From the IMG/VR virus record IMGVR_UViG_3300005096_000058, positions 46,148 to 110,147 of that record: DNA of 64,000 nucleotides. One strand, 5' to 3'. Each line of letters opens with the position of its first letter. Position 1 is the stretch's first letter. A program made the position numbers and the translations under genes. This document shows positions 1 through 62,505 of the stretch, in pieces. Under the pieces are notes generated by a model that had not been told where the DNA came from, ran no database searches, and was given only the letters and a program-made list of their open reading frames with translations. The stretch is from a virus.

Positions 1-403
1 GAGCGCCCCCACCAGGTTTGATGTCGGCGTTGCGTGCGACATGGGCAGCTCGCGCCTGGTTGAGTTGATCGACATTGAAATTGTAGCCGTTCGCGTTCGC
101 GACGGTCTTCAGGAGCTCGGAGAAGGTTTGGCACACCTCGCACTGCGCTTGCAGGGCTGGCTGGGCTGCCACCAACTGCACAAACGCTTTGGCGCTTGAG
201 ATCGAGGGTTTGGGGACGGTGGGGGTGCCCCGACGCGTGGCCTTCGTCTGGATGACATCTTCGGTCCAGCCACAAGCTAAAGCCTTGTTGGCATTGACCT
301 CGTCCTCAACGTCGATACACAAGTCAGCTCCGACTGCGTACGACGTGCCGTTGATGTCGATGGATTTACCCTTCAAGTGCGCGGAGCGTGTCTGGAGCAG
401 CAT
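1..403 (-). CDS. Nif11-like domain protein, C-terminus cut by window edge
   Basis: The ATG at 403 follows a GGAAG-type ribosome site and the frame runs off the left edge, so 134 residues are visible. Residues 1-65 are a beta-rich stretch I do not recognise. Residues about 68-120 resemble the helical Nif11 domain: KAFVQLVAAQPALQAQ, a short helix, then NANGYNFNVDQL, matching the family pattern of an AF..l..dP.L helix followed by a Gly-Tyr-x-Phe turn. Nif11 domains are best known as leader peptides of ribosomal natural products and as small proteins near nitrogenase genes. Here the gene directly follows the major capsid gene, so a virion or assembly role is more likely. The domain call is a pattern match only. 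Confidence 0.6.
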   Translation of the reverse strand, partial: MLLQTRSAHLKGKSIDINGTSYAVGADLCIDVEDEVNANKALACGWTEDVIQTKATRRGTPTVPKPSISSAKAFVQLVAAQPALQAQCEVCQTFSELLKTVANANGYNFNVDQLNQARAAHVARNADIKPGGGA

Positions 404-522
404 CTGATTTCTTCCTTGTTTCGGGGGAAACGATCGGCCCCAAAAGAAGAAGGGGCGCGCGACCATCATAAGTCGTACACCCCTTCTATTCCAGACACCC
501 GGTCCCCGCTAGGGGTTAGGCG

Positions 523-1959
523 TTAGGGCTGCCCTTTGAAGTTGGGAGCGCGGCCGATGTTTTTGATCAGCACGGCTTTCCCGGGGGCGTAGAGCACCGG
601 CACGCCGTAGACCAACTGCATCCAACGGATGGACGTGTTGATCGTGGCCAACGGTACTTTGAGGAATGGCGCCAGCTGTTTCCAGCTGAGACATTCCAAG
701 TTTTGCTGCCAGAGGATCGCGATCGACGTGAACGGCAGACGATCGTTGAGATCCGTGACGGTGTGTTCACCGGCACCAGACGTGTTGGGGATGCGCGCGA
801 TGAGCCGTTGTTTGCCAACGGGGCCATCTTTGCGCGTGCGGTAGAGCTCGTACCACTTCACACCGATGGCAGACCCGGGGGTCACACCAAACGTCATGGA
901 GTCACCAGCGGCAACCGCGATGGCACCACCGCTGACCGCGACTGCGACACTGCGACCGGAATCGTTGTGCGCAGAAACGCTGTAGAAGTAGCTGCCCGCA
1001 TCGTCCGCTCCGAAGAGTGATCCGACGTCGACAGGGGTCGTGGCACCCGTGGAGATCGTCGGGGTGGCTGGCCGTAGCGCAGCATCACCCGCGGCGGTGG
1101 TCTTGGGGGCACCACCGTCGTTGACGAACACGTTGGGTTCGAATTTGACGTCACCAGCGGGGCTGGTGAAGCCAGACACGTCGAGGCCCACCATCCCATC
1201 TTTGCGCTTGTCCAGAAGGTCATAACGGCCTTTCGGGAAGAAGCTTTTGATGAGGTCGGCTTTGATCTTCGGATTCAGATGCAGATGCGTCGGAATGCCG
1301 TAGTTGGGCTCATCGGAAATGGTCAGTGCGGCGTCGATGAGAATGTCCTCGTCGAGCGGCTGACCACGTTGGTCGATGATGTTGTCAGCCGGCGCATTGT
1401 CGGTGATCAACTTTTCATAGCCATCGAACTGGATGTTCGACAGCGAAGAGTCCGCATAGAACATCGCGCGCTCGACGATGCGGAGAAGCCACATCGTTCC
1501 GGCCACGGTTTCGTTCGCGATGACATTGCCGTGAGCCGGGCGAATCAAGCTCATGACATGGGACACGCTGCGTGTCGTTCCGAGGAACTTCACGGCGGCG
1601 TAGCGTCGGGCGTAGGTGGAGTCGTCTTCGGTCGGCAACGCCCCTTCCGAAATGAACCCTTCAAGACCCTCGCCGTAGCTCGAAATCTCATTGTGCTCTT
1701 CTACTGTGTTGTACGCAGCCAATTTTGGGATCGCTTTGAACAGCCGAATGTGCTCCATGCGGTAGGTGACGTTTTTCAACGTCTGCTCCAAGGACTCCAC
1801 GCGGAGCGGGAAGCCTTGCCCGGGCGCAGCACCGGGGTTGTTGATGTCGCCGCCCGCAGTGAGCGCCTTGTTGAGGTGGTCGAGGTCGGTCGAGGAGAAT
1901 TGCCCGTCGCCGAATCCGTCCACCCCGTCGTAATCTTTCCAGGAAACTTGGTTCATCAT
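523..1959 (-). CDS. major capsid protein, HK97-like fold with Ig/FnIII-like insertion
   Basis: 478 residues, expected to form the icosahedral shell. The start is ATG 1959 (an ATG-ATG pair) with GGAGGG about 10 nt upstream. Position after protease and scaffold-like genes is the classic head order. The N-terminal arm (about 40-100, including LEQTLKNVTYRMEH) is followed by a capsid-like core with TRSVSHVMSLIRP and GYEKLITDNAPADNIIDQRG. Residues about 300-400 look inserted: a Gly/Thr/Ser/Val-rich beta segment with SYFYSVSAHNDSG and VKWYELYRTRKDG, typical of fibronectin-III/Ig-like domains that decorate capsids. The chain returns to the core with LYGVP-like hydrophobic strands near the end. The N-terminal arm has a partial copy encoded at 13764-14192. 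Confidence 0.82.
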   Translation of the reverse strand: MMNQVSWKDYDGVDGFGDGQFSSTDLDHLNKALTAGGDINNPGAAPGQGFPLRVESLEQTLKNVTYRMEHIRLFKAIPKLAAYNTVEEHNEISSYGEGLEGFISEGALPTEDDSTYARRYAAVKFLGTTRSVSHVMSLIRPAHGNVIANETVAGTMWLLRIVERAMFYADSSLSNIQFDGYEKLITDNAPADNIIDQRGQPLDEDILIDAALTISDEPNYGIPTHLHLNPKIKADLIKSFFPKGRYDLLDKRKDGMVGLDVSGFTSPAGDVKFEPNVFVNDGGAPKTTAAGDAALRPATPTISTGATTPVDVGSLFGADDAGSYFYSVSAHNDSGRSVAVAVSGGAIAVAAGDSMTFGVTPGSAIGVKWYELYRTRKDGPVGKQRLIARIPNTSGAGEHTVTDLNDRLPFTSIAILWQQNLECLSWKQLAPFLKVPLATINTSIRWMQLVYGVPVLYAPGKAVLIKNIGRAPNFKGQP

Positions 1960-2035
1960 TTTGATGTCCCTCCTTCAGGTTTTTTGTCTGGACAAAGGTT
2001 TTGAGCCCGTTAGGCCCGTGGGTGAAGCAGTTGGC

Positions 2036-2722: not shown

Positions 2723-2733
2723 GGTGGTTCTCC

Positions 2734-11275: not shown

Positions 11276-13767
11276 AGCCAACTCTTTTCATCTTCCAGTT
11301 CGAGTAGGTGGGTGACGGGGCTGTCTTCACCTAAAAATTTCACAGCCACCGCTAAACGTTCCTCGTCGTCGGTAGCATTTCCCCAGGCGGACCATCCTTC
11401 CTCACCCATCTGCTCATCAGGAATGACTACAATAGGGACAGACACACCGGCCGCCTTGGCCGCAGCAACTCTATGCGAACCGGTCCAAGCGTCTGGGCGG
11501 ACAGGATCGCCAGAAACCACGACGGGGGCGCCCACAAATTCACCTTGGGCGCGGAAGCGGCGCTCAATCGATTTTAATTTGTCCTGGTCGCGTACCTCGT
11601 GGAGGGGGTTGATCCGACTAGCTTGTATACTGCGCTGGCGCCTAATTGCGTGGCCTTTTAGATTCGAAAAATCAGCTGTATCTTTCGTATAGGGGATCGT
11701 GTGCTGTGGGTCGGCCCACTTGCCCCCTCGCGGTCCCAAGAACAAAGCCTTGTCTAGTAGATCGTCGCCACTCTTAGTGCCGAGGTCAATCGGTTTGCGT
11801 TCCTCGTCGTTCTCAATGATCCGCGCTGAATCATCTTCGATGGGCCAACGGGGCCTGCCCTCTTGCTGCGTCGGGTGCCACTGGCCTTCGGGCTGACGGA
11901 CAGCGCCGCGGTTGGTAGGTACGTCGCGCATCTGGAAACTGATCCGCGCCACCTCACGCTTGTGCTCTTCCGCGCGGTTCTCCGTCTCGTCGGGTGTGAT
12001 GATGTTCTTGGTGTTCTTGTAGGCATCGGCGATCGCGTAAATCTGCGTGTCGACACCCGCCCCAAAAACATAGATGCTGGGGTCGCGGCGGACGATGACA
12101 TCGCCATGATGTTGCGCCCCTTGGAGGTATTCGCGGACACCTGCGACGTCATGAGGGTTGTGCGGCTTGGCCGGTAGCTCGGCCTGAATGTTGACCCCGC
12201 CGCCGCTGCCTTCTTTGAGGATGAACTGCCCGCCGCCAACGGCGAAAGCTGTACCGCTCACACCCTCGACGTAGGGGACACCCTTCCGCATGAGGGTCAC
12301 CGCTCGTCTGCGGATCTTAGGCCGAATTGTGAACCGCGCGTCTGGACGGAGAGGAGGAGGCACCGGCTCCACGTAGTTGGGGTTGGGCACCACGAACTCA
12401 GGGGTGGCTTTTGACAACTTGCGCGGGTTGGCCAACGTGGTGGTGAGCTTGTCTTTGAGCTTGCCCACGCTCATCGTCGTCATGCTTCCGAAAAAACCTT
12501 CGTCATCGTAGTTGGCGAGATAGGCCGCTTTGGCCTCCCCTGCCGACGAAAAACCAAGCATAACCTTGTCCTCGTCGTAGCCCTCAAACTTCCCCTCTAA
12601 GGTGCGCTTGCGTTGGTGCACGACGTACGCCTTCGATGCAAGGGGGTTGGGTCCGACGAAGCAATCGACGTGATCACCGTCGACACCAAGCGTGCGCCGG
12701 ATGTAGCCGTAGGGCCAAAGCATCACGCTGGCCCCTGAAGTCTTGTTCTTGTGGTCCTTCCAAAAGCGCAGTCCACCCGCGCCGTTCTCGATGGCGATGT
12801 CCATGCCTTGGAATTGCAGCTCCCCGTCCAGACGGTACGCCTTCACCAGCGCGTCCATATGCTGGTCTTCTGCTCGCAGCGCTTTCTCCACGTCGTCAGC
12901 AGCACCCTCGTACTCAACACCAAACTCGCCGCCTGGCACCATCGTACCATCTTCGTCGTAGCCCCATCCTGCGGGGACGCGAACAGCCTGGCACTGGCAA
13001 TTGGGATGAATTGAGCCAATGCTTGGTACCCAGTCCGCTGCTTTCTTCCCCACGTTGGACCCGGGGGCGCCCAACTGAGACAGCTTGAAGATGATCGGGG
13101 CACCGTCGGGGCCTAAACTCAATCTGAGGCAGTGTTTGCAGGCGTCGGGCATGGCGATCAGAGAGACCCGGGCGTCCTCACCATATTGTTTGCGGAAACC
13201 GTCGGCGACGCCTTCCTGCATGACGTTGTGCTTCTCCGTGACGGCAATGCGGTCGAGGTTGCGGGTCCAGTCCTGCATGGCGTGCCCGAGCTTGCTCTTG
13301 AGCGTACCCACCGTGCTGCGGCTAGCCACATTCTCAGAGGTGCTCGTCTGGATGTCAGCTTGAAGTTTTTTGCGCTGGGCCTGGTCAGCTTCGATCAGGA
13401 GCTTGCCCGTCTGGATGTCGATCGTGTTCCCCAGCCCCTGCACGTACTGGGCGGCATTGATCTTAGCCGTCTGGATGGCCTGCTCCTCGACGGCAGACAA
13501 TGGGATGGGGTTTTTGGCGAGTTCAGCCTTGACCTTGTCGAGGTCCCAGGTAGGCATATTTGGATCTTGAAGCTTGGCCACCAGCTGGCCGTAGGTGTAC
13601 GCGGTTTCAAATAGATCTTCGTGGCCCTCTAGCAGCCCCGCGCTCTTCAGATCAGCCACAACTCCAGCCGGAATAGCAGTCGGACCAAAGACGTCGACGA
13701 CAAAAGCAGCGTTGTGCTTCTGGATGACCTCCTTCACCAACTGCATGAGTTCCGGGGTGAGCTTCAT
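11272..13767 (-). CDS. polyvalent minor head protein: Mu-F/SPP1 gp7-like, pyrophosphatase-like and ParB-like domains
   Basis: 831 residues. ATG 13767 overlaps the preceding stop as ATGA. The helical N-domain ends with DACKHCLRL (near 208-216) and SIHPNCQCQA (near 252-261), the Cys/His signature of Mu gpF/SPP1 gp7 head-morphogenesis proteins that act at the portal. Around 330-450 an inorganic-pyrophosphatase-like domain is indicated by YGYIRRTLGVDGDHVDCFVG. A Gly-rich spacer and the motif GPRGGKWADPQHTIPY (678-693) follow. The C-terminus (about 710-790) resembles a ParB/sulfiredoxin fold with VVVSGDP and TGSHRVAAAKAAG. Such fusions are known as polyvalent proteins, ejected with the genome to protect it or alter the host. 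The domain order is visible; the ejected role is inferred. Confidence 0.75.
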   Translation of the reverse strand: MKLTPELMQLVKEVIQKHNAAFVVDVFGPTAIPAGVVADLKSAGLLEGHEDLFETAYTYGQLVAKLQDPNMPTWDLDKVKAELAKNPIPLSAVEEQAIQTAKINAAQYVQGLGNTIDIQTGKLLIEADQAQRKKLQADIQTSTSENVASRSTVGTLKSKLGHAMQDWTRNLDRIAVTEKHNVMQEGVADGFRKQYGEDARVSLIAMPDACKHCLRLSLGPDGAPIIFKLSQLGAPGSNVGKKAADWVPSIGSIHPNCQCQAVRVPAGWGYDEDGTMVPGGEFGVEYEGAADDVEKALRAEDQHMDALVKAYRLDGELQFQGMDIAIENGAGGLRFWKDHKNKTSGASVMLWPYGYIRRTLGVDGDHVDCFVGPNPLASKAYVVHQRKRTLEGKFEGYDEDKVMLGFSSAGEAKAAYLANYDDEGFFGSMTTMSVGKLKDKLTTTLANPRKLSKATPEFVVPNPNYVEPVPPPLRPDARFTIRPKIRRRAVTLMRKGVPYVEGVSGTAFAVGGGQFILKEGSGGGVNIQAELPAKPHNPHDVAGVREYLQGAQHHGDVIVRRDPSIYVFGAGVDTQIYAIADAYKNTKNIITPDETENRAEEHKREVARISFQMRDVPTNRGAVRQPEGQWHPTQQEGRPRWPIEDDSARIIENDEERKPIDLGTKSGDDLLDKALFLGPRGGKWADPQHTIPYTKDTADFSNLKGHAIRRQRSIQASRINPLHEVRDQDKLKSIERRFRAQGEFVGAPVVVSGDPVRPDAWTGSHRVAAAKAAGVSVPIVVIPDEQMGEEGWSAWGNATDDEERLAVAVKFLGEDSPVTHLLELEDEKSWL

Positions 13768-15057: not shown

Positions 15058-18000
15058 CTATAGGTCGAGGTCGATGCTCACAATACCCGGCACCGCCGCT
15101 GGTGTCCCCTGCCCCCCCAAAGCCTGTGAGGACCAGCTGCCTTTGCCGAATGGATTTCCTCCCCCAGACGAGCCCTTCTTGGCTTCCTCATCGGAGGTGG
15201 CAGCTGCGCCGTCCTCAGCATCTGCTGCGTTCTCGTTTTGGATGCCATCGAGTTCACCACCGAATGCGGCGTCCGTGCCGTCGTCCTCCGCAAAGTCTCC
15301 GGTGCCCATCTCCTGCTGCGCCGCCATCGTCTTGTTTTGCATCCAGACAGCGTGGAGAATGACTTGCCCCTCTCCGTCTGGAAGCGGCGGGAGATCTTCC
15401 TCGGCACGCACCTCGTCGACCATCTTGTACGATGTCACCTGCTTTGTATTGAGGTCAGCGAGCTCGTCTGGGGTTTGCGCGTCCAGACCGACAAAAGCGA
15501 ATTCGAAATCTTCGTCGATGCGGTGAACGAGGAAGGAGGACAACCGGTGCTGGATAAATCGGAGAAGGGGCTGCAGCCCTTTGTCTTTGGACTGCGCCAG
15601 CTTTTGCTTGTTGCTCGACTCAAACATCGAGCCGCCGCTGCCCCCGCTGTCCCCATATTTGAAGTTGATCTCCATCGGATCCATGCCGTAGATCGCGCAC
15701 GCCACCTTGATCAGGAAATCAAACCACGCGCTGAATTCCATGTCGCGGTTGGATTGCTGCAGGTTGATGTATTGGAGCTCCTCCGCATTTGTGATCGGAG
15801 TTTTGAATGCGTTCTCGACGCCAGCGACCATCGAATACCAATGACGGCGAAAAGCGCGCAGCTGTTTCTCAGGCACGGCACCTTTGAAGTTGATGATGCC
15901 TTTGGTCGACGTGCCTTGGCTGTTGTGCACGGCCATGTGGTTGAGCACGAACAGGTGCTCGTCGTTGAAAACCTCGACATCGAACATCTCACGATCTTCG
16001 TCGGCGTGACCAACAACCTCAACCGGCACCTGTAGGTAGCGCAGCCACGCGGGCTCCTCAGCACCGAGGCGTTGCAGAAGGTGGATTGCGTAGGCGCGGC
16101 TCATCGTCACGCGTCCCCCCGACGCTTTGCGGGCCATGTCGCGCTCCGCAACAGAGAGGGACTTGTAGTTGTCGTGCTTCCAGACGTGCGTACCAAGGTT
16201 GCGGCTCAAGTGCGGGTGCAACCGGTCCCAGCGATCGCGCTGAGCAGGACTGCGTTCAATCCCCTCGTTTTTGTACGCCTGCAAATAACCCACGGACGAC
16301 GTGAAAGAGGCGATGTCCTGCACGGTGATGGTACCGTGTCGGCTCGCAGCTGTGCCTCCACCCACAAGGTTTGAAGCCACGCCCACCGACCACAAACACT
16401 TGAGGATGTCCTGCGCCAGAGCCGGATCGGAGGAATGCACGCTTGGGGTACGGTAACCTGTGGCGTGTGTGGCGGTGCAGCCATCAGCACTGAAGATGCC
16501 GCGGAGCAAAGCGGCACGGATGTGCGCTGGCTGGCGGTAGACACTTTCAGGGATGCGCTTACCCTCACGAGACGGGCGGAAACCAATGTCACGCAGCCAG
16601 CGGTGGAACGCTGTGTGGCATATTTGCAACGCTGGGTAACCAAACTCGCCATCGCTACGCTCGATGGTTTTGTTGATCACACGGTCGGTGCAATGAATAC
16701 CATGCCTCACGCAAACAGCCTTAAACCGTTCGAAGAGATCAGCATCACGAGAATAGTGCGGGAAGACTTGCAACCAGCTGGGGGTGTCTCGCCCTTCATC
16801 GGGGAAGTACCCATCACCTAGCGCGAAGCCCATGAACTCCCAAAATTCAGGGTCCTCAATGAGCGCTTTCGTGGGGCGGAAGTCGCGTCCTGTTTTTCGA
16901 TCGGTGTCGTAAACGCGGTCGACGAGGAGGGTCTCATAATCGAATTCAGGGTCGGAGCGCTCATAGCTGACCAAGGCGAAATCGCCGGCCTGCAAGTCTT
17001 CTTGGCGGACCCATTCGGGATCACCATCACGGGAGCTCGCTGGGATCACGCGGTACCTATGGTCGGGACTGGTGGTGAGCTCCAGCCCATTCCACAATGT
17101 GGTGACCGCGGTGACCTTCTTGCCTGTGGGGAAAGCGCGCGCCTCCCCCCAAGTGCCTGGGCCAGTGCTGGCCACGAAGTTTTTTCCAGACAGATCCCTC
17201 AAAGGGATCAACCCTTCTGATGTGGTCACCAGCCCGTCGCCATCCGCACAAAAGAATTTCTGATTATAGTCCCATGACCAAAGTAACGACGTCACCGTCG
17301 AGATCAACATCTCTGTTTCGGCAATCCCGTACCCTTGGTTTCGGATGTCCGTGACCGGATTGCGAACACCAAAACACATCTGATCAGCGCCATATTCGGC
17401 TGTGACCAGGCCGTCGTAGATCTGGACGTAGCGGGTCTCTTCGGGTGTGCCTTGGTAGTAAAGCTTGGTTGTGTCCGCGATGCGCAGCGTGGCGCCGTCA
17501 ACGGCGTAGAAGTCGTAAGGCTTGTCACCACGATCTTCCCGCACCTCGAAACCCAGTTGGTCATAGGTCAATGCGTCGCGCACGATCTTGCGCAAGAACG
17601 TCTCAAAATTGTCGCGAGCATTGGGTGTGCCGCGGTCGTTGACCTTGCCCGTTGTCATCACCCAGTTGGTGATCTCTTTGCTCTTCTTTTCGCTGGCCTT
17701 AGAGGGGGAAGCCTTGCGATCACGCAACTGGATGCGAAAGCCTGTCTGGAACTTGTCCTCCTGCGGCAGACTGAAATTGGCCATCTGGTCGGTGCGCGTC
17801 TTGATGATCGCCTGGATGATCGGCATGCGGAAGACCATCGCCGACAACGTCGAGTAACTGATTGAGCTTGGCCGCTCTTTGTATCCGAGCGCGTCAATGA
17901 CTGAGAACGGATCCCAGAACAAGGCTTTGGGATCGCTGACCGGATCACCAATTTCTGACGGGTGTGGACCGGCCGTTGCGGGCGTGTCCGTAGTGGGTTG

Positions 18001-21793: not shown

Positions 21794-24700
21794 CTACCAC
21801 TCGAAATCCTTGTTGCCGAGTCCAGGTAGATGCCTCCACGCCAGCTCGTCTGGATGGAGGAGTTCATCAGGGACCAAAGCGGCTTCACTCGCTGAACGTG
21901 TGGCCTTGGGTCCTACGAGGTTTTCCACTGTGAGGTTGGCTTGCAGGAACTCCTTGATCGCGTCTTTGGGCGCGTCCTCCAGCTCTACGTCGCCTCCCCA
22001 ATCTTTGAGCAAGTCCCCCACGGGGTCGTTACCCAACGCCGCGCTGTCCGGTTCAGCCATTTGCTGCTCAAGAAGTTCGTCCAGACTGAGGTCATCGTCG
22101 TCACCGAAAGAAAAGCCGAAGGCGCCAGCGCGCACAGCGCAGTTGGCAATCCAGAACGCCATCACGGTGTCATCGTGCGAACCCACCCCCTGGAGCTTGC
22201 CCTCCAGCCAAGTGAAGTGACGCATCTCCTTGATCCACTCGTCACCCTTTTCGACGCTTTCGCGATCGCCGCGGGGGATGCGCACCTTGGCGTTTTCGAG
22301 GAGCACGCGCAGCTGGGGCACTCCACCTTCCAAGGTGTTCTTGTTCATGGTGTGCGTGTTGCCTGTGGGCTGGCTGTTGTTGTTCTTCTTGGTTCCAGAC
22401 GTCACGAACTTGAAGATCGGCAGATCGGTTTCGCGGATGAGCTCGTCACCAAAGATCCGCTGCATCTGGTTCGACTCCAGATAGATGAGATCAGCGTCGT
22501 ACTTTTGGCCAAGAGCGTTGATCAGCCCCTTTTGTTGGTTGTAGGCCAGGCCGTGGTGACGCTGGATGTCGATCACCCAGCGGTTGCGAAACTGGTCAAC
22601 GCCAAGCACGAACCCGACGGTGTAATCGGCGCCCGTCGAGGTGGAGATTGCGAAGTCGAACCCGATGTAGAAACTCGTGATGCCGAGCTCTTCGTAATAG
22701 GCACGAGGCTGGCCCATCTTCACGCCGATTTGCTCGACGGGAGCCCCCTGGAACAGCTTGCCGGGGAACAGGCTCATCTCATCGCTGATTGGCTCGCACA
22801 TGAACTCGCGCGTGAAGCGCACGCTCTTGATCTCGATCTCACGCTCTTCCAGCGATTCGACGACGATGCCTTGTTCCAGATAGCGAAGACGTTCAGCTTT
22901 GGTCGCGCAGAAGCGCTCGGGCCACAAGGCTTTGCCTTCCGCATCACGGGCGGCATATTTACGGTAGCAATAACGTTTGTTCGTCGACAGGTCCGCGTAG
23001 AGGTCAGCCGCATGGAATGGCGTGCCGACGACGATGACCTGGCCACCGGGGTTCACCATGTTGGTGATCGCCGTGTAGAAATAGTCGATGTGCTTGGTGC
23101 GCACGAGCTCGGAGTACGCGTCCTCGTCGTTCAGCCCGTCGTCGACAACAATCCAATCCGGGTGGGCGCCGCGAATCTTGGTGCCGTAGCCTCGTGCATA
23201 GATTTTGTGACCGTTGGCCAACGTGATTTGCGTCTTGCTCCAGTTGCGCGCTTTGTTCTTTGGGTTGAGAAATGCGAGCTTCGGGTTGGACTCAATCTCC
23301 TCCTTGATGTCCTCCAAAATGCGCACGGCCTGGTCTTGGGTCGCCGAGAAAATGTAGCCGCGGCCCCCGGGCAGGTACGCTGCTTTCCAGATGGGGTAGG
23401 CGAAATCAAAATAAAACGTGTTGTGGTTGATGACGTCGTCGGAGACGTAGTTCACCAAACCAGGGACGTGCATCGACCAAGTTTCTTGCTCCCCAATATC
23501 CTCGATAGCGATGATCTCATCCCAAAGCACATCTGCGTCAGCAAGAGCCAACAGCTCGCTGTTGTTTTCCGCAACTGCGATCGCACGCAGCTTGGCTCGC
23601 GTCGGTTCGTACTGTGGGGTGGGGCGGGGATGTCCGCGGTCCCGAAACCAAGTCTCAGAATGTTCGACCTGCTCCCACACATCCCGAGGAAAGCGATCAA
23701 TGGCTGGGCCATGTGGGGGATCTTTGGCCTCCTGCATCTGGACCAGGGCCGCCAATTGCGTTGCCTTGCCCCCTCGCAAACTAATCTGCGCGGCAAGGCG
23801 CAAGACGTCTTGCCCCCTGACTGTGAGACGCCACGACCAATGATCTTTCGCGAGGTATTTGCCCTTTTTACGGCCCAGCACAGCCACCACGCCTAAGCGC
23901 ACAAGGAGGTGTTGCACGTCTCGTAGGAGTTGCTCCGAGACAGAATAAAACTCGACTGCGCCGCCCCCAGACAAGGCACAAGTACCATCGGCTTCCAGAT
24001 ACCCCGCAAGGAATTCAGCGATCGACGTGTCCGAGGCTGTGAACAACTCTTTAGGCACGCGCTTTTCATGCGCTGTGTGCCCCATGAGGCCAAGCGCTCG
24101 CATACGCTGCACGGGGCCACCCTCGCGAGCATAGTTGGCGTGCAGTCCATAAGTGATCGGGTCCGCGGGCCTGCGGGTGAGCCCCCACCCCAACCGAGCC
24201 GCTTCCTGTTTGACTGCCCCCAACGTAACGGCATCGGCCACGGTGATCGTGACCCCGGTTCCGGTAAGGCCGCCATCGCCAATCAACATCCCTAGAAGCC
24301 AAGCGTCATCCACCGTTTTGCTGGCGCTCGTTTGTAGCCTGCGGGGGACACCGATGCGCTGGCCCACCACCAGTTGATCAGCACGGAGCCAACGATCCAG
24401 CAACCTCAACGGATGATTTTCCGTGACGCGTACGCGGCGGCCCGTCTTCGTGGTGATCTCTAGGCAGCGCTTGTGCCCGTTGCGCCGGGACGCGGGCGCA
24501 TAGGTGGGCACGAGTTTGTGCGTGTCCTCGTCGTAAGCGATCACCTCGCCGCCTGACCAAGACTCGATCGGGATGCGGCGGCCATCAGCCGCATTTATGA
24601 GCGCACCCTCAACCTGGCACTTCCCATGATTCCGGGGGGCTAGCACGCAAATGCGATCCTGCTCCGCGACGAGATCATCCCATTCCATGTGATGATCTGC

Positions 24701-30044: not shown

Positions 30045-31091
30045 TCACCAAAATAAAGTTGCAGCACGTGGTTGTGGTCGGCGGGCTAGGAAGGCGGCCA
30101 CGAACGCTGACGCTTGCGGAGCCACGATGGCGTTTCCGTAGGCGCGCAGGCGTCCCACTCGATTGGTAACCCCATGAGCCAACGGGAATGTGCCGGGTTC
30201 AACTGGCCGGGCTTTTCCGTCTGAGCACCTGAGCCACTCGGCTCCAGCCCAAGCACCATTTGTTTCAGCGCTTGGTCGCCTTGTCGGTTCGGAGGGGGCT
30301 GTGCGCCCGTCCCGTCGTTGGCCCTCGGGGTGGGCCAACCCTGGACCGTCTGGACTTGGAGGCTGAGGCTGGTAAGGCTCACGCCCAACTTTGATCCCTT
30401 CTGAATCGCCCGCCGTTTGCGCTCCAGAAATTGCTCCGGGGTGCCTCCCGCTTCGCGGGCTGCCGGCGTGGCCCAGGTTGCCAAGGCCGCTGAGTGTAGG
30501 TCTTGTGGGCCGCCCTTGCGGGCTGTCTCGCGTGCCGCTCCTGCGGCCGATCGGACGTTCTTGGTGCCGGCCGGCGATCTCGTCGTGGGCCACCCAATAA
30601 AGTCGCTTTCGTTGGTGCGGGGCACCGAAACCACAAGCCGCGGTAACGCTCGCCCCGACGGCGTAGCCTCCACTTTCCAAGTCTGACGATACAAGGTCGA
30701 ACCAAGCCTCTCCTGCTTTTCCCGCAACCTGCTCGCCAAAGATCGTGTGAGGCGCGCACTGTTCGACGAGCCAATGCCAGGAGGGCCAAAGGTGCCGCTC
30801 GTCGTCAAACCCAGCTCCTTTGCCTGCCGCGCTGAAAGGCTGGCACGGGCAGCTGCCTGTCCAGATGGGCCGGTCATCGGGCCACCCGGCATTGCGCAGC
30901 GCTAAACTCCAGACGCCAACACCCGCAAAGAAATGACATTGTACATAGCCTTTCAGATCGCTCGGGACGACGTCCTCGATGCTGCGCTCGTCGACGTCAC
31001 CGTGGGCGATCTGGCCAGCGTCGATAAGGTTGCGCAACCACTGCGCGGCGTAGGGATCGATCTCATTGTAATAGGCTGAGCGCAAGATCAT
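30045..31091 (-). CDS. dcm: DNA cytosine-5 methyltransferase (motif order II-I-IV)
   Basis: 348 residues. Catalytic motif IV is [13 protein letters not shown] with Cys83 as nucleophile; motif I is [13 protein letters not shown] (53-65); motif VIII is [13 protein letters not shown]; motif X is [15 protein letters not shown] at the C-terminus. Motif II ([12 protein letters not shown], 8-19) precedes motif I, so the order is permuted relative to classical enzymes, as in several phage enzymes. It methylates cytosine in DNA, probably to hide phage DNA from restriction. The region around 180-320 is Arg/Pro/Gly-rich and overlaps a second open frame (30086-30892). The start shares ATGA with the wHTH gene. 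Confidence 0.85.
30086..30892 (-). CDS. possible overlapping gene inside dcm (alternative frame)
   Basis: A 268-codon frame embedded in the methyltransferase gene on the same strand. Its product has [20 protein letters not shown], repeated WPTP/WATP motifs ([24 protein letters not shown]) and ends with [19 protein letters not shown] know this combination from phage and bacterial proteins encoded next to or overlapping Dcm genes, so the frame may be truly dual-coded. The matching Dcm stretch is low-complexity, as expected if constrained by a second frame. No strong ribosome site was found for it; expression is uncertain. Confidence 0.4.
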
Positions 31092-38519: not shown

Positions 38520-38522
38520 GCC

Positions 38523-44057: not shown

Positions 44058-44129
44058 GGGCTCCCCTACGTGCAGCTTTGGTTTGGTGATTGACGATCAG
44101 TCTAACTCACCTACTCCACACAGTTTTTT

Positions 44130-45859: not shown

Positions 45860-45860
45860 C

Positions 45861-46304
45861 TCAGCCTCCCATCACCCCGAGCTCGTCGTCGGTGGGCTCG
45901 GGTGTGAGTTTTTGTTGTTTGGTGACGACGCGGATTTCCGCACCCGCAAGCACGTGACGGGACCGGGCCACGGCGGCGATTTGTTTCTCTTCGGTGTCGA
46001 TGTCGATGTCGCGCAACGACGTGTTGGCTCCGAGGCGACTGAGCACCTCAGCAATGTACGCGGCTGCTGCTGTTTTTCCAGCCTTCGCGGGGCCCTCGAC
46101 GGTGATGGTGATCATGAGATCCCTCCTCTGGTGTTTCTTGTTGAATTTTGCCGCCGCAGCTTCAGCTACGACTGGACACATGATGTCGTGTTGACCCACG
46201 ACGAGGTGCCCATGGTCGGGACTTTTGCAGGCGTCGCATGGCGGGTCCATCTGGGGCCAGGTGTCGATGTGGATAACGTTCATGTCATCCTGGGTCATAT
46301 TCAT
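45861..46304 (-). CDS. small P-loop protein with N-terminal Cys motif
   Basis: 147 residues from ATG 46304, 20 nt overlap with the MT-A70 gene. The N-terminus has CDACKSPDHGHLVVGQH and IMCPVV, a possible zinc site. ITITVEGPAKAGKTAAAAYI carries a Walker A motif (71-78) in a small NTPase of the kind often seen in phages. A second start at ATG 46115, with GGAGGG seven bases upstream, would make a shorter NTPase alone, so two products are possible. Confidence 0.6.
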   Translation of the reverse strand: MNMTQDDMNVIHIDTWPQMDPPCDACKSPDHGHLVVGQHDIMCPVVAEAAAAKFNKKHQRRDLMITITVEGPAKAGKTAAAAYIAEVLSRLGANTSLRDIDIDTEEKQIAAVARSRHVLAGAEIRVVTKQQKLTPEPTDDELGVMGG

Positions 46305-46839
46305 CCCCGTGCCCGTCCCAGCCTTCTGGAATCTTGCCGCGGGCGAAAAGTTCAATGCGCGGGCGATCGCCAAGTAGCTCGACGATGCGATCGCGCACTT
46401 CGGGGGGCTTAGTCGAATGCTTCCCAGGCAATGGCTTCGGAGCAAAAACCGTCTGGACAATCTTCTCGCTCAACAGCGGAAAAACGCGCTTGTCCTTCGT
46501 CGAGTAAACAAGGCAGAATTCAGTGAGAGGCTTAACCGTGCGCGGACGGACACCACTGGCCTTGAGCGGAGTACCGTCCAGCTTGGTCTTCACCCAAACG
46601 AAGGCCACGCCTTGGTAGATCAAGCCTTGTTTCTTCCAGCGTTCGCCGCAGCGAAGAGCCAGGTCCAACTTCGGGCAGGTCACCCATGAGAAGACGATCG
46701 CATCTTTCGCGAGGAAGAGGGACCAATCGAAGTTGGAGATCTCCTCCTCAGTCATTTGCTTGTACGTGAGCTTGGCCGTGCCGAATTTTGTGTACGTCCA
46801 TGGGAAATCAGTGAGGACAATTTCGTAACGCTTGGTCAT
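46285..46839 (-). CDS. MT-A70-family adenine N6-methyltransferase
   Basis: 184 residues. Catalytic DFPW (11-14, for DPPW) in EIVLTDFPWTYTKFGTA, then YKQMTEEEI, LIYQGVAFVWVKTK, HSTKPPEVRDRIVELLG and PRIELFARGKIPEGWD: the full MT-A70 signature. It methylates adenine in DNA (or RNA) using SAM. Phe in the second catalytic position is a variant. Likely protects phage DNA from restriction, alongside the Dam and Dcm genes. Confidence 0.82.
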   Translation of the reverse strand: MTKRYEIVLTDFPWTYTKFGTAKLTYKQMTEEEISNFDWSLFLAKDAIVFSWVTCPKLDLALRCGERWKKQGLIYQGVAFVWVKTKLDGTPLKASGVRPRTVKPLTEFCLVYSTKDKRVFPLLSEKIVQTVFAPKPLPGKHSTKPPEVRDRIVELLGDRPRIELFARGKIPEGWDGHGDEYDPG

Positions 46840-48476: not shown

Positions 48477-48479
48477 GAA

Positions 48480-50548: not shown

Positions 50549-50549
50549 G

Positions 50550-51395: not shown

Positions 51396-51399
51396 TCAT

Positions 51400-52233
51400 T
51401 CACCCCACTGCCAACAATTCGTTGACGTCTGTACGGCCGGCGCCATCGGTGTTGACTACATATTTGGTGGTCAGCGTCTGGATTTTTGCGTCTGGCCAGA
51501 TGAGTTGAAACAACGGGCCAAGGGCGGGGTCACAGCTGTTGCTATAGATCACCGTCGCGCCTGCGTTGCGCCACTTCCAGATCTGGCAGAGGAGCTCGAC
51601 GTGGTCCGCGTGATCAAAGCCCCCAGCCGTGTACCCGGCAAAGGCTCCGTAGTAGGGCGGATCGACGTAGACGCAGGCCCCTGGGGCTACCTCCAGCTCT
51701 TGGTAGCTCCCCGTGCGCAGCTCGACGTACTGTAACGCTTGGTGCCATTCGTCGATGTTGTCGTTGTCAGGGAGAGCGATGCTCTTGTATTTGCCCCAGG
51801 AAGCGTTCAGTTTGTCTTGGCGGTTCACGCGCCAGAGTCCGTTGAATGTGGTTTGTTTCAGGAACACGAAGCGCGCAGGATCACGTCCTTTTTCGCTTTC
51901 ATTCCAGAGGCGTCTGGACTCCAAGAACATTTGGGCGCGATCTTCCTGGGTCCCGTCGTCGTACTGCTCACGGTAGACCGACAATGCGGCTTTCAACCTC
52001 TGCACCCCCCGGGGGTCCTGCACCATTTGGTAGAGGGACATCAGGTGAGGGTTGATGTCCCCCAGCGACACGCGTTGGCACGTGTCCAGATCTCCAGCGT
52101 TGACCAGCTCGCAGAAGAGCGCGGCGCCCCCTGCAAACGGCTCGTGATATTCGGTCACGACGAGAGGGACATGCTCCGCAATGTCGGGGGCCAACCGGGT
52201 TTTCCCTCCGACGTATTTGGTCAATGGGCGCAT
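51400..52233 (-). CDS. dam: Dam/D12-class adenine N6-methyltransferase
   Basis: 277 residues from ATG 52233 (TGATG overlap with a tiny zinc-ribbon gene). Motif X KYVGGKTRLAP, motif I EPFAGGAALFCELV, region with FVFLKQTTFNGLWRVN and catalytic DPPYYGAF (Asp191-Tyr194) identify the D12/Dam family. It transfers methyl from SAM to adenine N6, commonly in GATC. It likely protects phage DNA or alters host regulation. Confidence 0.88.
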   Translation of the reverse strand: MRPLTKYVGGKTRLAPDIAEHVPLVVTEYHEPFAGGAALFCELVNAGDLDTCQRVSLGDINPHLMSLYQMVQDPRGVQRLKAALSVYREQYDDGTQEDRAQMFLESRRLWNESEKGRDPARFVFLKQTTFNGLWRVNRQDKLNASWGKYKSIALPDNDNIDEWHQALQYVELRTGSYQELEVAPGACVYVDPPYYGAFAGYTAGGFDHADHVELLCQIWKWRNAGATVIYSNSCDPALGPLFQLIWPDAKIQTLTTKYVVNTDGAGRTDVNELLAVG

Positions 52234-52325
52234 CACCGCTCCTCACTGTAGCCGCACACCGTGCAACACCAAGAATTCTGAGTGAGACGGCGTAAGGCCT
52301 CCTCGTCGCAGTTTGGACACTTCAT
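52233..52325 (-). CDS. 30-residue zinc-ribbon miniprotein
   Basis: A short frame from ATG 52325 whose TGA overlaps the dam ATG. Reads KCPNCDEEALRRL, then WCCTVCGYSEER: a complete CxxC...CxxC ribbon. The ribosome site is weak, but the metal pattern and the TGATG junction argue that it is translated. Confidence 0.5.
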   Translation of the reverse strand: MKCPNCDEEALRRLTQNSWCCTVCGYSEER

Positions 52326-58184: not shown

Positions 58185-58821
58185 GTTGTTTTTCCTTTGT
58201 TCTTCTTGCGGTGGCGATTTCACGTTCGCCAGTTGTTTTCACATCGGAACAGCTGCGGCACATCACCTGTAGGTTTTCGACCTCACAAAACATGGCCGCG
58301 ATGACGAGGTCCCAAGACACAAAGCCGATGGCTGGGTCTATGATCGGGAGGGTGTGGTCGACGATGACGTTGTTGATTCTCTTTTTCTTAGACTTGTGCC
58401 CCGGGGGTGTCGGTATCGACGAGGGCACCACCTTGCTGCAGACAGAGCAGCGGTACATCCCCCGGGACACCTTGGCAGCACGGCGTGCGTCTGCGATCGG
58501 GGCCCAACGCATGGACATCTGACGTAGCCCACCTTTGATAAAGGACACAAACCTGGCCTCGGTCCATTGGCCGCTGGCGCGCGTGCGCGGGACAAGTTGC
58601 CTACCCTTCGCTGGTTTCGGCGTCTTCGCGACTGGGGGCGATGGTGAGCGGGGGGCGGGCAGGGTCGGTGACGGCGTCGTCTTCTTCCTCGCTTTGGATT
58701 TCTGGGAAATCACTCGGTGGATCGTCACTGCCCTCTTCACCACTCGCTTCGCGGGCCGAGTCCGCGTTCGCGGTGACTGCACGGTTGACGAGGGCGGCTG
58801 CCAGTTTCTCGGGGTCTGCAT
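58174..58821 (-). CDS. HNH homing-type endonuclease
   Basis: Up to 215 residues; the first about 70 lie over the end of the preceding gene and are Lys/Pro/Thr-rich, so the true start is uncertain. The nuclease core is YRCSVCSKVVPSSIPTPPGH, then VIVDHTLPIIDPAIGFVSWD and VENLQVMCRSCSDVKTTGE: a zinc-bound HNH fold with the catalytic His in VDH. It is preceded by WTEARFVSFIKGGLRQ. It probably cuts DNA, for homing or packaging. Confidence 0.75.
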   Translation of the reverse strand: MQTPRNWQPPSSTVQSPRTRTRPAKRVVKRAVTIHRVISQKSKARKKTTPSPTLPAPRSPSPPVAKTPKPAKGRQLVPRTRASGQWTEARFVSFIKGGLRQMSMRWAPIADARRAAKVSRGMYRCSVCSKVVPSSIPTPPGHKSKKKRINNVIVDHTLPIIDPAIGFVSWDLVIAAMFCEVENLQVMCRSCSDVKTTGEREIATARRTKEKQHAH

Positions 58822-59179
58822 TTTCCACTCCCTTGAATGCAGCGGTGATCTCCTCTTTTGAGAGGGGGCCCTCGACGCGACAAAGCACGAGGTTGTTGGT
58901 CATGACGATCACTGGCTTGCCCAGCGAGTCCATCATGCGCTGCTCGATGCTGCGGGCCATGTCGTAGCTCGTCGTCGGCGGGACGGCCACGACAAGACAG
59001 TCCTTAAACGGGGTATCGATGATCTCAGACTTCGGGTGGTCCTGAATCAAAGTCTCCTTCACCGTCGGACCCAGCCCATCTTGTTGGTCGGCTTGTGCGA
59101 TCTCCATCGGAACCACGCGCCAAAAGGTGTGCTCCTTGGCGATGTGTCGTCGTGCTTTTCGTTTCTGCGTTGAGCTCAT
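58601..59179 (-). CDS. hypothetical recombination-cluster protein
   Basis: 192 residues. N-half alpha/beta with FKDCLVVAVPPTTSYDMARS and VIVMTNNLVLCRVEGPLSKE, C-half acidic and disordered (EEGSDDPPSDFPEIQSEEED). Overlaps the HNH gene by about 220 nt if that starts at its first ATG. Start shares ATGA with the SbcC-like gene. Family unknown. Confidence 0.55.
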   Translation of the reverse strand: MSSTQKRKARRHIAKEHTFWRVVPMEIAQADQQDGLGPTVKETLIQDHPKSEIIDTPFKDCLVVAVPPTTSYDMARSIEQRMMDSLGKPVIVMTNNLVLCRVEGPLSKEEITAAFKGVENADPEKLAAALVNRAVTANADSAREASGEEGSDDPPSDFPEIQSEEEDDAVTDPARPPLTIAPSREDAETSEG

Positions 59180-61074
59180 GCTTGTGCCTCTAAAATTCTG
59201 GATTCACCGTTGTGCTTCTGGACAACAATTGTTTCCGCAAACGTGCCTTGGAAACGGGGATCGTGGTCGATGACGAAGATGGAGCTCTTCTCTGCGGACA
59301 AGGCTTGCAGCATCTCAGCCACAGCCTCCTTGCCAGACTGGTCCAGATGTTTACCGAAGATCTCATCCAGAAAGAGCATGTCGTAGCTTTGCTCTGCCCG
59401 GTTGGCAACGAGGCGGGCCAGCCCAAAATCAATCCCTGACCCTACGCGTGCTTTTTCCCCGCCGCACCAAGATCGATAATTGCGGCCGATTTGGGTGCCG
59501 TCTGGATTGTGCCTAAACACCCGCACGGCAAATTTGTCGACGAGCTTTTCGGACTTTCCTTTGCCTGTTTTGGTCTGGGTTTCGAATCGCACCCAGATCG
59601 TGCCTCCAGTCAGCAACGACACCCAACGGTTGGCCTCGTCGGTCATCTCCTGCAGCCGGCTGTCCAGAATGTGGCTTTTGATGCCCCGCGGGCCAAACGC
59701 CTCCACCCAGAATTTGTAATACGGGATCTGGTCGTCCAGATGCGCGAGTTCGTGCTGGGCCCCATCCACTTCGGCGCTGAGCTCTTGGTACTTGTTCAGC
59801 CAAGCGTCAATGCGCGGTTGGTAGGGGTTCACTTGTGGGGGCTGTTGCTGTGCTGTCTGGTACGCGTTGAGGTCGCGCTGCACTTCGGCGTAGCGTGAAT
59901 TCAGCCTTGCGTGCCTATCGTTCTGTGCCGCGAGGGAGCGTAGCTGCTCCTGGTGCTGCTGCGTGCGTGCGAAGAAATCCGAATCAAGGTCGGCTTTGTG
60001 GGTCGCTATTTGTGCGGTGGTGGCCTGTGCCTCGACCAGTCGGTGCCGGGCAAGATCAGCGATGCCCTCTGCGTCGAGGTAGACCTGGGGGTCTGGTGGG
60101 TGATCCGGGGTAACGGGCTGTCCGCACGTTGGGCAGGTTCCAGACGCTGCCGCGGTTTGGGCTGCCTGTTGTAACGTCCCTATGGTGGAATTGGCGGCGC
60201 CCACCTCAAGGAGGCGGGTGTTCACCCAATCGTTGGCTTCAGCGAGATCAGAATTCACTCGGGCGAGCTCTGCGGCCGGTTGCGGCGGTGGAGGCACAGG
60301 CAGCGCGGGGCATACCTGCAGCTCTGCTGCGAGAGCCTGTAAGCCTTGTTGGTACTCGGTTATTTTGGAAGACAGATCAGCTGCATGCTGTGCGTCCCAC
60401 TCGGAAGCGAGAGGGCGTGGGTCAGATCCTGGTAGCAGGTCGAGCTCGCCCTTTTTGGTTACCACACGCAGTTGCAGCGCTTCAGCTTGTTCCGTCGCCT
60501 CAGCCAGCCGCAACTTTGCCGCGCACAACCACTCGTCGACGACAGCCAGCTCGGGTATTATTTTAGACAACAAGGCTTTGCGCTGCACGTCAGTAGCGTC
60601 AGCGAATTTCCATTCGTCGAACTGCGCGAAGAGGACAGCACTATGGAACACCGATCGATCCATGCCCAGCTGGGTTTCCAGCCGCCGCTGAGTTTCTGCG
60701 GTGTCGTGGGTGGTCAGCTCCTCGTCACCCACCCAGAAGCGGAGCCCGTCCTTCTCACCCTTCACCTTCCGGCAGCGGGTGATCGTGAGGATCACCCCGT
60801 CATCTTTACGCACGCGCACCGTGACTTTCGTGTCCCGGTTGGTTTTCTCGTTGATGACGGAATCTGCGACGTCCCCCCGAGGGACAACGCCCGTGAGGCA
60901 CCAATCCACTGCATCAGGGATCATGCTTTTGCCCGAGCCGTTGGAATTCATCTTGGGATCGTCTTTGTTGTCACCCAGAATTAAGCACAGTCCCCGAGAT
61001 TCCAGACGAAAGGGGGGGTGCGGGCCACAGAAACTGCCGTAGTTCTGAACTGTGACGTCGAGGAAGGCGCTCAT
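59176..61074 (-). CDS. SbcC/Rad50-like recombination ATPase
   Basis: 632 residues, shorter than bacterial SbcC, as in phages (gp46-type). Walker A MNSNGSGKS (42-50), AVLFAQFDEWKFADATDV (Q-loop region), long central coiled coil, zinc hook CPTCGQP (314-320), signature WCGGEKARVGSGIDFGLARL and Walker B MLFLDEIFGKHLD. It pairs with the SbcD/Mre11 phosphodiesterase next to it to process DNA ends during replication and recombination. ATGA overlap with that gene. Confidence 0.9.
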   Translation of the reverse strand: MSAFLDVTVQNYGSFCGPHPPFRLESRGLCLILGDNKDDPKMNSNGSGKSMIPDAVDWCLTGVVPRGDVADSVINEKTNRDTKVTVRVRKDDGVILTITRCRKVKGEKDGLRFWVGDEELTTHDTAETQRRLETQLGMDRSVFHSAVLFAQFDEWKFADATDVQRKALLSKIIPELAVVDEWLCAAKLRLAEATEQAEALQLRVVTKKGELDLLPGSDPRPLASEWDAQHAADLSSKITEYQQGLQALAAELQVCPALPVPPPPQPAAELARVNSDLAEANDWVNTRLLEVGAANSTIGTLQQAAQTAAASGTCPTCGQPVTPDHPPDPQVYLDAEGIADLARHRLVEAQATTAQIATHKADLDSDFFARTQQHQEQLRSLAAQNDRHARLNSRYAEVQRDLNAYQTAQQQPPQVNPYQPRIDAWLNKYQELSAEVDGAQHELAHLDDQIPYYKFWVEAFGPRGIKSHILDSRLQEMTDEANRWVSLLTGGTIWVRFETQTKTGKGKSEKLVDKFAVRVFRHNPDGTQIGRNYRSWCGGEKARVGSGIDFGLARLVANRAEQSYDMLFLDEIFGKHLDQSGKEAVAEMLQALSAEKSSIFVIDHDPRFQGTFAETIVVQKHNGESRILEAQA

Positions 61075-62048
61075 GCGTGCGTCACTTCTGCGAGCGCTTC
61101 CAGAAGTCCAGCCGAGTCGAGCTCCCCCGCATGCGTGAGGGCGTAGGCGCGGGCCGTCTCTGCTGCGGAGGCTGACGTGCCGAGGCCCAGCCGGTCCGCT
61201 CCGTAAGATTGCTTAGGAGGGTCGACAAACACCTCAGCGCCAGTCAGCGCTTTCACCTGCTTCACAGCCTCGACGGGGTCTAGCTCGGGATCGAGGGTGA
61301 GGTGTACGCGGTCGCCGGGAGAAGCCTCTGCGAGTTCAGGGTTTGGGGACCCTTTGGTCATCTGGACGCGGTGGTGTCTACGCCCAACCCTGATGGGCAC
61401 GTGCTCCCAGCCGTCATCATCTATCCAGATGAACCCCTTTTCCTGGCCGGCCTCGTCGGCGCGCGTCTGCCAAGGGCTGCCGACGTACACCACGTTAGCT
61501 ACCTCCTGGTGGCGGTGCCAATGTCCCGCAAACACGGTGTCAAAGCCCGAAAACACCGCAGGGGGGATACCGTCAAGTTCGCCCGCGACAACGTTGGTAT
61601 TCATCATGGCACCTTGAATTCCATGATGGAGCCACGCCACGTTAGGGCTGCTGTCTGGACGTGGTTGTGTCTGGACCACCTCAATGATCTCGGAAATGTT
61701 GCGACGAAAAGGCAGCCAAAGGCCGTGCTCGTTCCACGCCGGATCCGTCATGATCTGTGCGTGTGCTCGGAACACCTCCAGCGCATGACGGCCCGCAACG
61801 TCGTCCTGATCGTGGTTGCCGGGAAGGATCACCAGCTCGAAGCTTTGTCGTGCTCGCTCAACCCAGTCGAGGACACGATTTTGAAGTGCGATCGGCACCG
61901 TGTATCTCAAATCGTAGACGTCACCGAGGAGCACCAGCGTTTGCACGTTGTACTCCTCGGCCTTCTGCAGATAGACGTCCAGCACCTCAAAAACGATGTC
62001 GGCCGTTTCAGGTTTGAGGTGTAGATCTGCGGCGAGGAGGTAGCTCAC
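61071..62048 (-). CDS. SbcD/Mre11-like nuclease
   Basis: 325 residues. Calcineurin-like phosphoesterase motifs: LAADLHLKPE (Asp8, His10), LVLLGDVYD (Asp43), LPGNHDQDD (Asn78-His79), WLHHGIQGA and FAGHWHRHQE. Two metals are bound and DNA ends are cut, probably as dsDNA exo/endonuclease in complex with the adjacent Rad50-like ATPase (gp47/gp46 pair). The C-terminal 80 residues hold the partner-binding region. Confidence 0.88.
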   Translation of the reverse strand: MSYLLAADLHLKPETADIVFEVLDVYLQKAEEYNVQTLVLLGDVYDLRYTVPIALQNRVLDWVERARQSFELVILPGNHDQDDVAGRHALEVFRAHAQIMTDPAWNEHGLWLPFRRNISEIIEVVQTQPRPDSSPNVAWLHHGIQGAMMNTNVVAGELDGIPPAVFSGFDTVFAGHWHRHQEVANVVYVGSPWQTRADEAGQEKGFIWIDDDGWEHVPIRVGRRHHRVQMTKGSPNPELAEASPGDRVHLTLDPELDPVEAVKQVKALTGAEVFVDPPKQSYGADRLGLGTSASAAETARAYALTHAGELDSAGLLEALAEVTHA

Positions 62049-62293
62049 GAATCGCTGCGCTTCGCTGAAGTGCGGACGTTGTTCACGCGGTGCTTGGATC
62101 CATCCGCACCAATAGCGTGCATTCGGTATTTGCCTTTAGAGAAGTCGCGCGTCTGGATCAGCTCAGGAGCTCCGACGTGTCTGGACAGCTCACCACACTC
62201 TTTGCAGGACTCAACGAGGGTGTCTTTCTCGTTGTGTCTACAGAGCACTTCCTGTGTGTGGCCGGTGGCGCAGGTGAACGTGTAGATGGGCAA
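62045..62293 (-). CDS. small zinc-ribbon protein
   Basis: 82 residues, ATGA overlap with the SbcD-like gene. IYTFTCATGHTQEVLCRHNE and LVESCKECGELSRHVG give Cys and His pairs of an FmdB-like ribbon. Basic C-terminus. Function unknown. Confidence 0.6.
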   Translation of the reverse strand: MPIYTFTCATGHTQEVLCRHNEKDTLVESCKECGELSRHVGAPELIQTRDFSKGKYRMHAIGADGSKHRVNNVRTSAKRSDS

Positions 62294-62295
62294 CC

Positions 62296-62505
62296 TTAGC
62301 CCTCCTCAGCGTCTGGAATATGGGACCGCACAAAGCAGTCTTTCGCCTCCAGAAGTTTGCGCAGCGCAACGGTTTGTTCCGCGCGGTCAACCGATTCTGA
62401 ACCAGCAATGTGCTCAGCGAGATCAGCAAACGGCTTGCTGCGCGGTTGCAGGTGGTCGGGCAATTGTTTGTACGCAAAATAACGCAGAAGTCGGTGGCGG
62501 GTCAT
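62296..62505 (-). CDS. Acb2/Tad1-like small helical protein
   Basis: 69 residues from ATG 62505 with AAAGGAC upstream, just after the recA stop. RHRLLRYFAYKQLPDHLQPR, KPFADLAEHI and TVALRKLLEAKDCFVRSHI match a family of short phage proteins (RyF.y..LP..Lq..S..F..LA...ALRKLLEAKD), some of which I recall being named after the Acb2/Tad1 hairpin domain. Acb2 and Tad1 soak up cyclic nucleotide signals of CBASS and Thoeris defence. The match is by pattern only, so sponge activity is a hypothesis. Confidence 0.5.
   Translation of the reverse strand: MTRHRLLRYFAYKQLPDHLQPRSKPFADLAEHIAGSESVDRAEQTVALRKLLEAKDCFVRSHIPDAEEG

Follow-up and report, generated by a model that had tools for sequence, protein, structure and literature searches.

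Only rarely is a short word repeated densely across a whole genome, as Chi, the DNA uptake sequences (DUS) and HIP1 are, and the way in which such words arise and change their spelling is an open question. The DUS and uptake signal sequences (USS) of Neisseriaceae and Pasteurellaceae are dense, dispersed chromosomal words with lineage dialects on a conserved core and are read by a competence receptor, and the highly iterated palindrome 1 (HIP1) of cyanobacteria is a very dense chromosomal word with one fixed palindromic spelling, the function of which is debated. The stoperators of Cluster A mycobacteriophages are 13-bp sites, about 30 to a genome, oriented with transcription. These dispersed phage sites are bound by a phage protein, with a specificity that diverges among relatives (PMC6550527). 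Lambdoid phages over-represent Chi, at 0.2 per kb (Bobay et al., 2013, PMC3784561), and the Chi motifs of RecBCD share GCTGG and differ at their ends, as in GCTGGTGG and GCTGGCGC (PMC5959072, PMC8022716). Here we describe a 7-base word, GTCTGGA/TCCAGAC, in a 64,000-nucleotide stretch (the window) corresponding to positions 46148-110147 of the 110,147-bp IMG/VR virus contig IMGVR_UViG_3300005096_000058 (G000). The word is strongly enriched independently of coding, has no preference in orientation or spacing and is maintained between sister phages, and related phages of ~110 kb carry variants of one core, which is spelled TCTGGA or TCCGGA and set in varied flanks.

Using expected counts from an order-2 Markov model, GTCTGGA/TCCAGAC is the top 7-mer of the window, with 57 plus-strand and 70 minus-strand copies, i.e., 127 against 9.8 expected (z = 37). 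The original prediction, made by reading the sequence, had given about 125 copies against about 8, an observation that is confirmed and was, if anything, too modest. On the whole contig, 94 copies of GTCTGGA and 103 of TCCAGAC add up to 197 against 16.3 expected, a density of ~1.8 per kb, and the reversed control word occurs 11 times; CGTCTGGA is present 129 times against 5.8 expected. The base preceding the window copies is mostly C (74) or T (42) and seldom G (9) or A (2), and the base following them is A in 47 cases, C in 42, T in 23 and G in 15, which gives a preferred form [CT]GTCTGGA[AC] (YGTCTGGAM) and bears out the proposed extension to YGTCTGGAH. One-base variants had been expected near background, and this is true of changes within TCTGGA, with observed-to-expected ratios of 0.88-0.93 across G000 and its sister phage G001 once the word is excluded from the model by masking, but not of the first base, where ATCTGGA (34 versus 8.5) and TTCTGGA (33 versus 7.7) are enriched about four-fold. 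An apparent depletion of near-cognates, seen with a naive model, vanished upon masking.

As a baseline, 50-kb stretches of T4, SPO1, phiKZ and SPbeta were scanned and contained no comparable word (best 8-mer z of 6-10). In P1, the positive control, the same scan returned the E. coli Chi GCTGGTGG as top 8-mer, with 27 copies against 2.5 expected (z = 15.6) split 14/13 between the two strands, which shows both the ability of the scan to pick up functional words and that a word read by the host may give this signature.

To what extent does coding account for the word? Synonymous codon shuffling within genes predicted 11.4 and 18.8 copies in the two orientations on the coding strand, where 78 and 72 were observed. 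Gene calls, made with a simple custom caller, are approximate; 150 of the 197 copies fall inside called genes, and the density outside them (47 in 25 kb) is equal to that inside. The word spells 39 of 49 [FILV]QT, 17 of 22 VWx and 32 of 74 [CGRS]L[DE] peptides, far above the codon-usage prediction, and the [FILV]QT peptide is itself in excess (49 versus 27), therefore the pressure for the word reaches protein sequence. Together, the shuffling and the peptide counts rule out a coding explanation and confirm that the word occurs in all codon frames and in unrelated genes for reasons other than protein sequence (30 expected versus 150 found).

Along the contig, the word favours neither orientation, and the order of the orientations shows no structure (94/103; runs test z = -0.2); neither the weak bias originally suggested nor a replication polarity of the E. 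coli type was seen. Not all Chi are polarised (PMC5959072), and Chi in P1 is mixed. Spacing is near random (coefficient of variation 0.9-1.1). The dips noticed at 57.2-59.5 kb and beyond 62.3 kb do not exceed chance, about one gap that long being expected among 126. The 1.2-kb TerL intein is devoid of the word, as had been remarked, although with a P of ~0.12 for this absence. Two longer deserts lie outside the window (contig 14.8-19.3 and 36.0-40.3 kb), in baseplate or variable tail-region genes, and the second longest gap of the contig has P = 0.004. Word-free tracts were considered as a mark of new DNA and rejected, as the TerL intein has no copy but the portal-gene insert has two. The relative G005 carries two inserts in its own TerL.

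The sister phage G001 (TerL 91% identical; 52 kb aligned at 71% nucleotide identity) uses the same form, YGTCTGGAM, with 204 copies of GTCTGGA against 16 expected. In the alignment, the word is in the same place at 48 of 135 sites (36%) compared with 7% for other 7-mers, i.e., five times more often, and we conclude from this that the word is maintained. About half of each phage's copies are retained (13% expected), Hamming distances are bimodal and the non-retained sites are mostly changed at more than one base. The original prediction had listed several possible roles for the word: a Chi-type signal, an uptake word, a packaging or replication mark, or a nuclease or methylase tag. A functional and selected DNA word is supported by shuffling, peptide counts and positional maintenance alike.

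The word is not confined to this phage, a point beyond the reach of the original prediction: among more than 50 relatives obtained from TerL searches of IMG/VR, different spellings were found. On long contigs, several of them full-length, G007 has a TTTCTGGAA dialect (TTTCTGGA, 148 versus 6.5 expected) and G006 a ATCTGGAAAA dialect (TCTGGAAA, 54 versus 0.8), TTCTGGA reaches 336 versus 22 in G029, and G011 carries AATT[TG]CTGGA (AATTKCTGGA), with TTCTGGA at 133 versus 26 and AATTGCTGGA at 28 versus 0.5. G009 has a looser [AT][AT]GCTGGA (TTGCTGGA, 50 versus 3.6), TCCGGA is the word of G015 (319 versus 50), and G025 (the L110 contig) carries the palindromic TTCCGGAA (155 versus 5.7) as well as a second enriched word, CCTGGGC/GCCCAGG (268 versus 56). 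Shorter contigs add AGTCTGGA (G002), TNTCTGGAAA (G004), ACTCTGGAA (G010) and AGTCTGGAAA (L112/L113), dialects that rest on a few kilobases each. The scan finds no such word in G005, G008, G016, G018 and G023. One family thus offers eight or more dialects, and several members without any, at measurable distances from one another, so that comparison can trace how a genome-wide word arises, switches and is lost.

In the TerL tree, in which many forks are weak, the two TCCGGA phages stand apart, each nearest to TCTGGA phages, therefore the core changed at least twice. Only 10 of 136 word sites are homologous between G000 and G007 (0.4 expected by chance), and the word is rewritten across the genome when the dialect changes. 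The dialect is a perfect palindrome in G015 and G025 and quasi-symmetric in G000 and G007, and the TCCGGA dialects run counter to a general avoidance of palindromes in these phages: CTCGAG (0 observed, 33 expected) and TCCGGA (0/21) are absent from G000, GAGCTC (0/74) from G009, along with CTCTTC (0/90), and GGATCC (0/78) from G015. We read this avoidance as suggesting hosts rich in restriction systems. The absence of TCCGGA from G000, together with an excess of ~260 TCTGGA on the contig, led us to consider decay of methylated TCCGGA to TCTGGA. This was ruled out: between the sister phages only one one-base counterpart is GTCCGGA, few core sites of G000 are aligned to a TCCGGA in G015 (8 of 131), and many other palindromes are equally absent.

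The explanation we favour, tentatively and at somewhat less than even probability, is that the word serves, throughout the genome, as the binding site of a protein that is sequence-specific and probably dimeric, and the specificity of which drifts along the phage lineage. GTCTGGA would be the core of this protein-binding word, selected on the phage genome as a whole and not on the genes that hold the copies. Recognition would take place in double-stranded DNA, most likely by a dimer, because the TCCGGA and TTCCGGAA dialects are perfect palindromes that accumulated in phages avoiding most palindromes; TC-TG-GA can be viewed as a palindromic frame with an asymmetric central step. Such a reader would have to act in either orientation, at any position and on many copies, and to change its specificity within a phage family. 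It may be phage-encoded or phage-used, with the genome following its drift by gain and loss of sites. Its likeliest job would be a service to the phage DNA as a whole, since what counts is a large number of interchangeable copies and not where any one of them lies. The DNA might be loaded or marked in this way for recombination, replication, compaction or packaging, or labelled as self to escape a nuclease. A viral reader would be an unrecognised kind of phage DNA-handling protein.

Several observations weigh against this explanation. Symmetry is not general, as G002 needs G at -1 (47 of 50) and leaves the right side free, G004 needs A on the right (43 of 55) with -1 free, and G011 prefers T on both sides. 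The near-total turnover of sites between dialects makes the evolution of a reader untraceable site by site, and no gene was found with a distribution that parallels the dialects; the sole exceptions are a weak HNH match and a weak methyltransferase match that the two TCCGGA phages share. Finally, the host Chi of P1 produces the same statistical signature.

Of the described systems, Chi in P1 and lambdoid phages is a likeness in being a short, roughly 10-fold enriched word scattered on both strands (Bobay et al., 2013, PMC3784561); the word described here differs in being ten times denser than in lambdoids, in its graded flanks, in having several dialects, two of them palindromic, within one phage family, and in lacking a known host counterpart. 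It differs from DUS and USS in residing in a tailed-phage genome, where DNA uptake has no obvious role. The dense palindrome TTCCGGAA of G025 resembles HIP1, whereas the phage words are viral, mostly non-palindromic and vary in spelling among relatives. Compared with stoperators, the sites number ~200-360 and follow no orientation, and no gene was recognisable as that of a repressor; equal orientations, the 150 copies within called genes and the location of all 85 called genes on the minus strand do not fit an operator or stoperator array. It is tempting to speculate, although we would put this below an even chance, that this family of large phages has its own genome-identity word, a short double-stranded DNA site present in hundreds of copies per genome and read by an evolving phage-borne protein. 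Each lineage would then rewrite its entire genome into a new dialect, having switched more than once between TCTGGA and the palindromic TCCGGA, and the system would be a viral equivalent of DUS or HIP1, distinct from the Chi of the host. Searches of the open-licence literature found no report of this word or of the phage family.

The main rival, which we regard as unlikely but serious, is that the word is the Chi of a host RecBCD- or AddAB-like enzyme, carried in excess by the phage to make the enzyme halt its degradation of the linear phage DNA and load recombinase instead, with the dialects reflecting different hosts. The P1 control and the over-representation of Chi in lambdoid phages (PMC3784561) favour it, most dialects share CTGG(A) with RecBCD Chi motifs, and sites in random orientation are what a linear genome would need if it is entered from both ends. 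On the other hand, none of eight published Chi motifs counted is the word or is enriched like it, the word, at 1.8-3.3 per kb, is about tenfold denser than lambdoid Chi, we know of no Chi resembling the palindromic dialects, and the flank preferences are graded, whereas Chi in P1 is sharply delimited. A TerL search of genome contigs found no relative except on one contig of a Gemmatimonadetes metagenome-assembled genome, the sole host lead and a weak one. In 150 Gemmatimonadota genomes YGTCTGGAM is not enriched (~0.03 per kb, compared with 1.1 per kb in the phage), a comparison limited by this lead, as the host itself may differ. If the reader were a host Chi enzyme, the word would predict the host Chi and offer a way to find hosts of uncultured phages.

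That a phage methyltransferase modifies the word, the mark protecting or distinguishing phage DNA, is improbable. Three methyltransferase genes in the window and a heavy restriction pressure, with many palindromes absent, are in line with it, but restriction pressure normally removes sites rather than multiplying them, and the two methyltransferases that were traced (g69 and g75) are missing from most word-bearing relatives and hence make poor reader candidates. We are a little more doubtful of a replication signal, i.e., a long recognition word read on either template strand by the phage primase or a replication loader. A primase, a DnaB-like helicase and a family A DNA polymerase (PolA) are encoded by the phage itself, and one site per ~1.1 kb per strand is near Okazaki fragment length; however, known primases read about three bases, a palindromic dialect gives no strand information, the orientation does not switch along the genome and the word-less G016 has the same replication genes. 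We give little credence to a decoy, in which hundreds of sites titrate a host regulator or defence protein: the number of sites, their free position and orientation and the lineage-specific spelling would fit, but no host word or regulator was found and positional maintenance is stronger than pure titration needs. Nothing was found in favour of a word without function, arising from mutation bias, codon usage or protein repeats, and this reading is very improbable in view of the synonymous shuffling, the equal density outside called genes, the background level of one-mismatch neighbours, the positional maintenance and the independent TCCGGA dialects.

The original prediction had named RecA, SbcCD and the methyltransferases as possible readers; their genes were confirmed (Table 1), but no gene emerged as the reader. 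RecA and SbcCD are conserved in word-bearing relatives, and also occur in word-less ones such as G016, and to our knowledge neither has sequence specificity. Several dozen proteins were searched against Pfam and PHROGs, and neither a RecBCD inhibitor nor an evident sequence-specific reader came to light. Genes were also compared one by one for any protein that would unite the two TCCGGA phages, which returned mostly antisense shadow open reading frames, along with a weak HNH match and a weak methyltransferase match. The conserved protein adjoining sbcCD is a weak candidate.

Table 1. Features of the window. In the position lists the sign gives the strand, and a dagger marks copies for which the aligned position in G001 also has the word.
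Feature	Window position	Strand	Remarks
Dispersed word GTCTGGA/TCCAGAC, 127 copies	246..62317	both (57 +, 70 -)	33 at same aligned place in G001
Word copies, 0-10 kb	246+† 390+ 490-† 1986+† 2321- 2700+† 3068-† 3608-† 3722+ 3851+ 3974+ 5481+ 6024+ 6684+ 7455- 7478- 7854+ 7933+ 7944- 8722+ 9604+ 9787-	as signed	
Word copies, 10-20 kb	10251+† 10440+ 10960+† 11186- 12340+ 12827-† 13346+ 13409+† 13469+† 14409+ 14634-† 14975- 15342-† 15376+† 15482- 16179- 17185- 17744+† 18705-† 18729-† 18864- 19125-	as signed	
Word copies, 20-30 kb	20076- 20866-† 21649- 21848+ 22080- 22394-† 24737- 24936+ 24946- 26062- 26344- 26658- 27184- 27475+† 28325+ 28996+ 29175- 29817-	as signed	
Word copies, 30-40 kb	30348+ 30908-† 31560-† 31609-† 31790+ 32189+ 32504- 33020- 33706- 33884+ 35121- 35178-† 35293- 35548- 35710-† 36072- 36235+ 38037- 38416+ 38481- 38631+ 38969- 39291- 39919-	as signed	
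Word copies, 40-50 kb	40065- 40540- 40875+† 40950+† 41582-† 43634+ 44033- 44295+ 44579- 44623- 44935+ 45534- 46451+ 47017+ 48278- 48468- 48667+ 49893-	as signed	
Word copies, 50-62.3 kb	50370- 50722+ 51010- 51476+† 51912+ 52351+† 53246+ 54006+† 54047- 54111- 55567- 55778- 56123-† 56922- 57210+ 59500+† 60139- 61001- 61653+ 61669+ 62151+ 62179+ 62311+	as signed	
Example pair 60 bp apart (13409, 13469)	13409..13475	+	both conserved in G001
Example pair 16 bp apart (61653, 61669)	61653..61675	+	inside sbcD gene
Portal-gene insert, intein-like ends	15923..17251	-	absent from G001; two words (16179, 17185)
TerL intein	23423..24620	-	absent from G001; no GTCTGGA, two TCTGGA cores
C5-cytosine methylase domain	30045..31091	-	domain match
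MT-A70-type methyltransferase	46285..46839	-	does not track the word
DNA methyltransferase (phrog_56)	51400..52236	-	does not track the word
ADP-ribosylglycohydrolase gene	52345-53382		PF03747, E = 9e-63
192-residue conserved protein adjoining sbcCD	58601..59179	-	shared by most full-length relatives that have the word (G029 is an exception); missing from word-less G016
SbcC-like subunit	59176..61074	-	profile search
SbcD-like subunit	61071..62048	-	profile search
RecA/UvsX-like recombinase	62519..63700	-	possible user of a recombination word; also in word-less relatives
Second dispersed word ACAAGGCTT	e.g. 5140, 6284, 11745, 17919, 22924, 29557, 46622, 55596, 62598		
Palindrome AGACATATGTCT, four copies	28177, 30020, 32725, 50247		overlaps TTGACA; upstream of predicted genes

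The contig belongs to a tailed phage that also encodes a DNA polymerase processivity factor. Its ends (1-91 and 110057-110147) overlap exactly over 91 bp holding tandem repeats (CAACAAGGCTACC), from which we take the genome to be probably complete and circularly permuted. End overlaps of 117-127 bp are also found in G009, G015 and G029.

A second dispersed word, ACAAGGCTT, mostly in the form [AG]ACAAGGCTT, is present in 29 copies on the G000 contig against 1.25 expected (11 plus, 18 minus) and in none in G001. The palindrome AGACATATGTCT is likely to be a shared promoter or operator of a small regulon, judging from its placement. In the distant relatives L120, L125, L126 and L127 (TerL ~42%), a recurrent AGGATAAT(G) could be a promoter element, and in G009 and G021 GAGGAGAGCGA stands just upstream of start codons as an unusually uniform ribosome-binding site.

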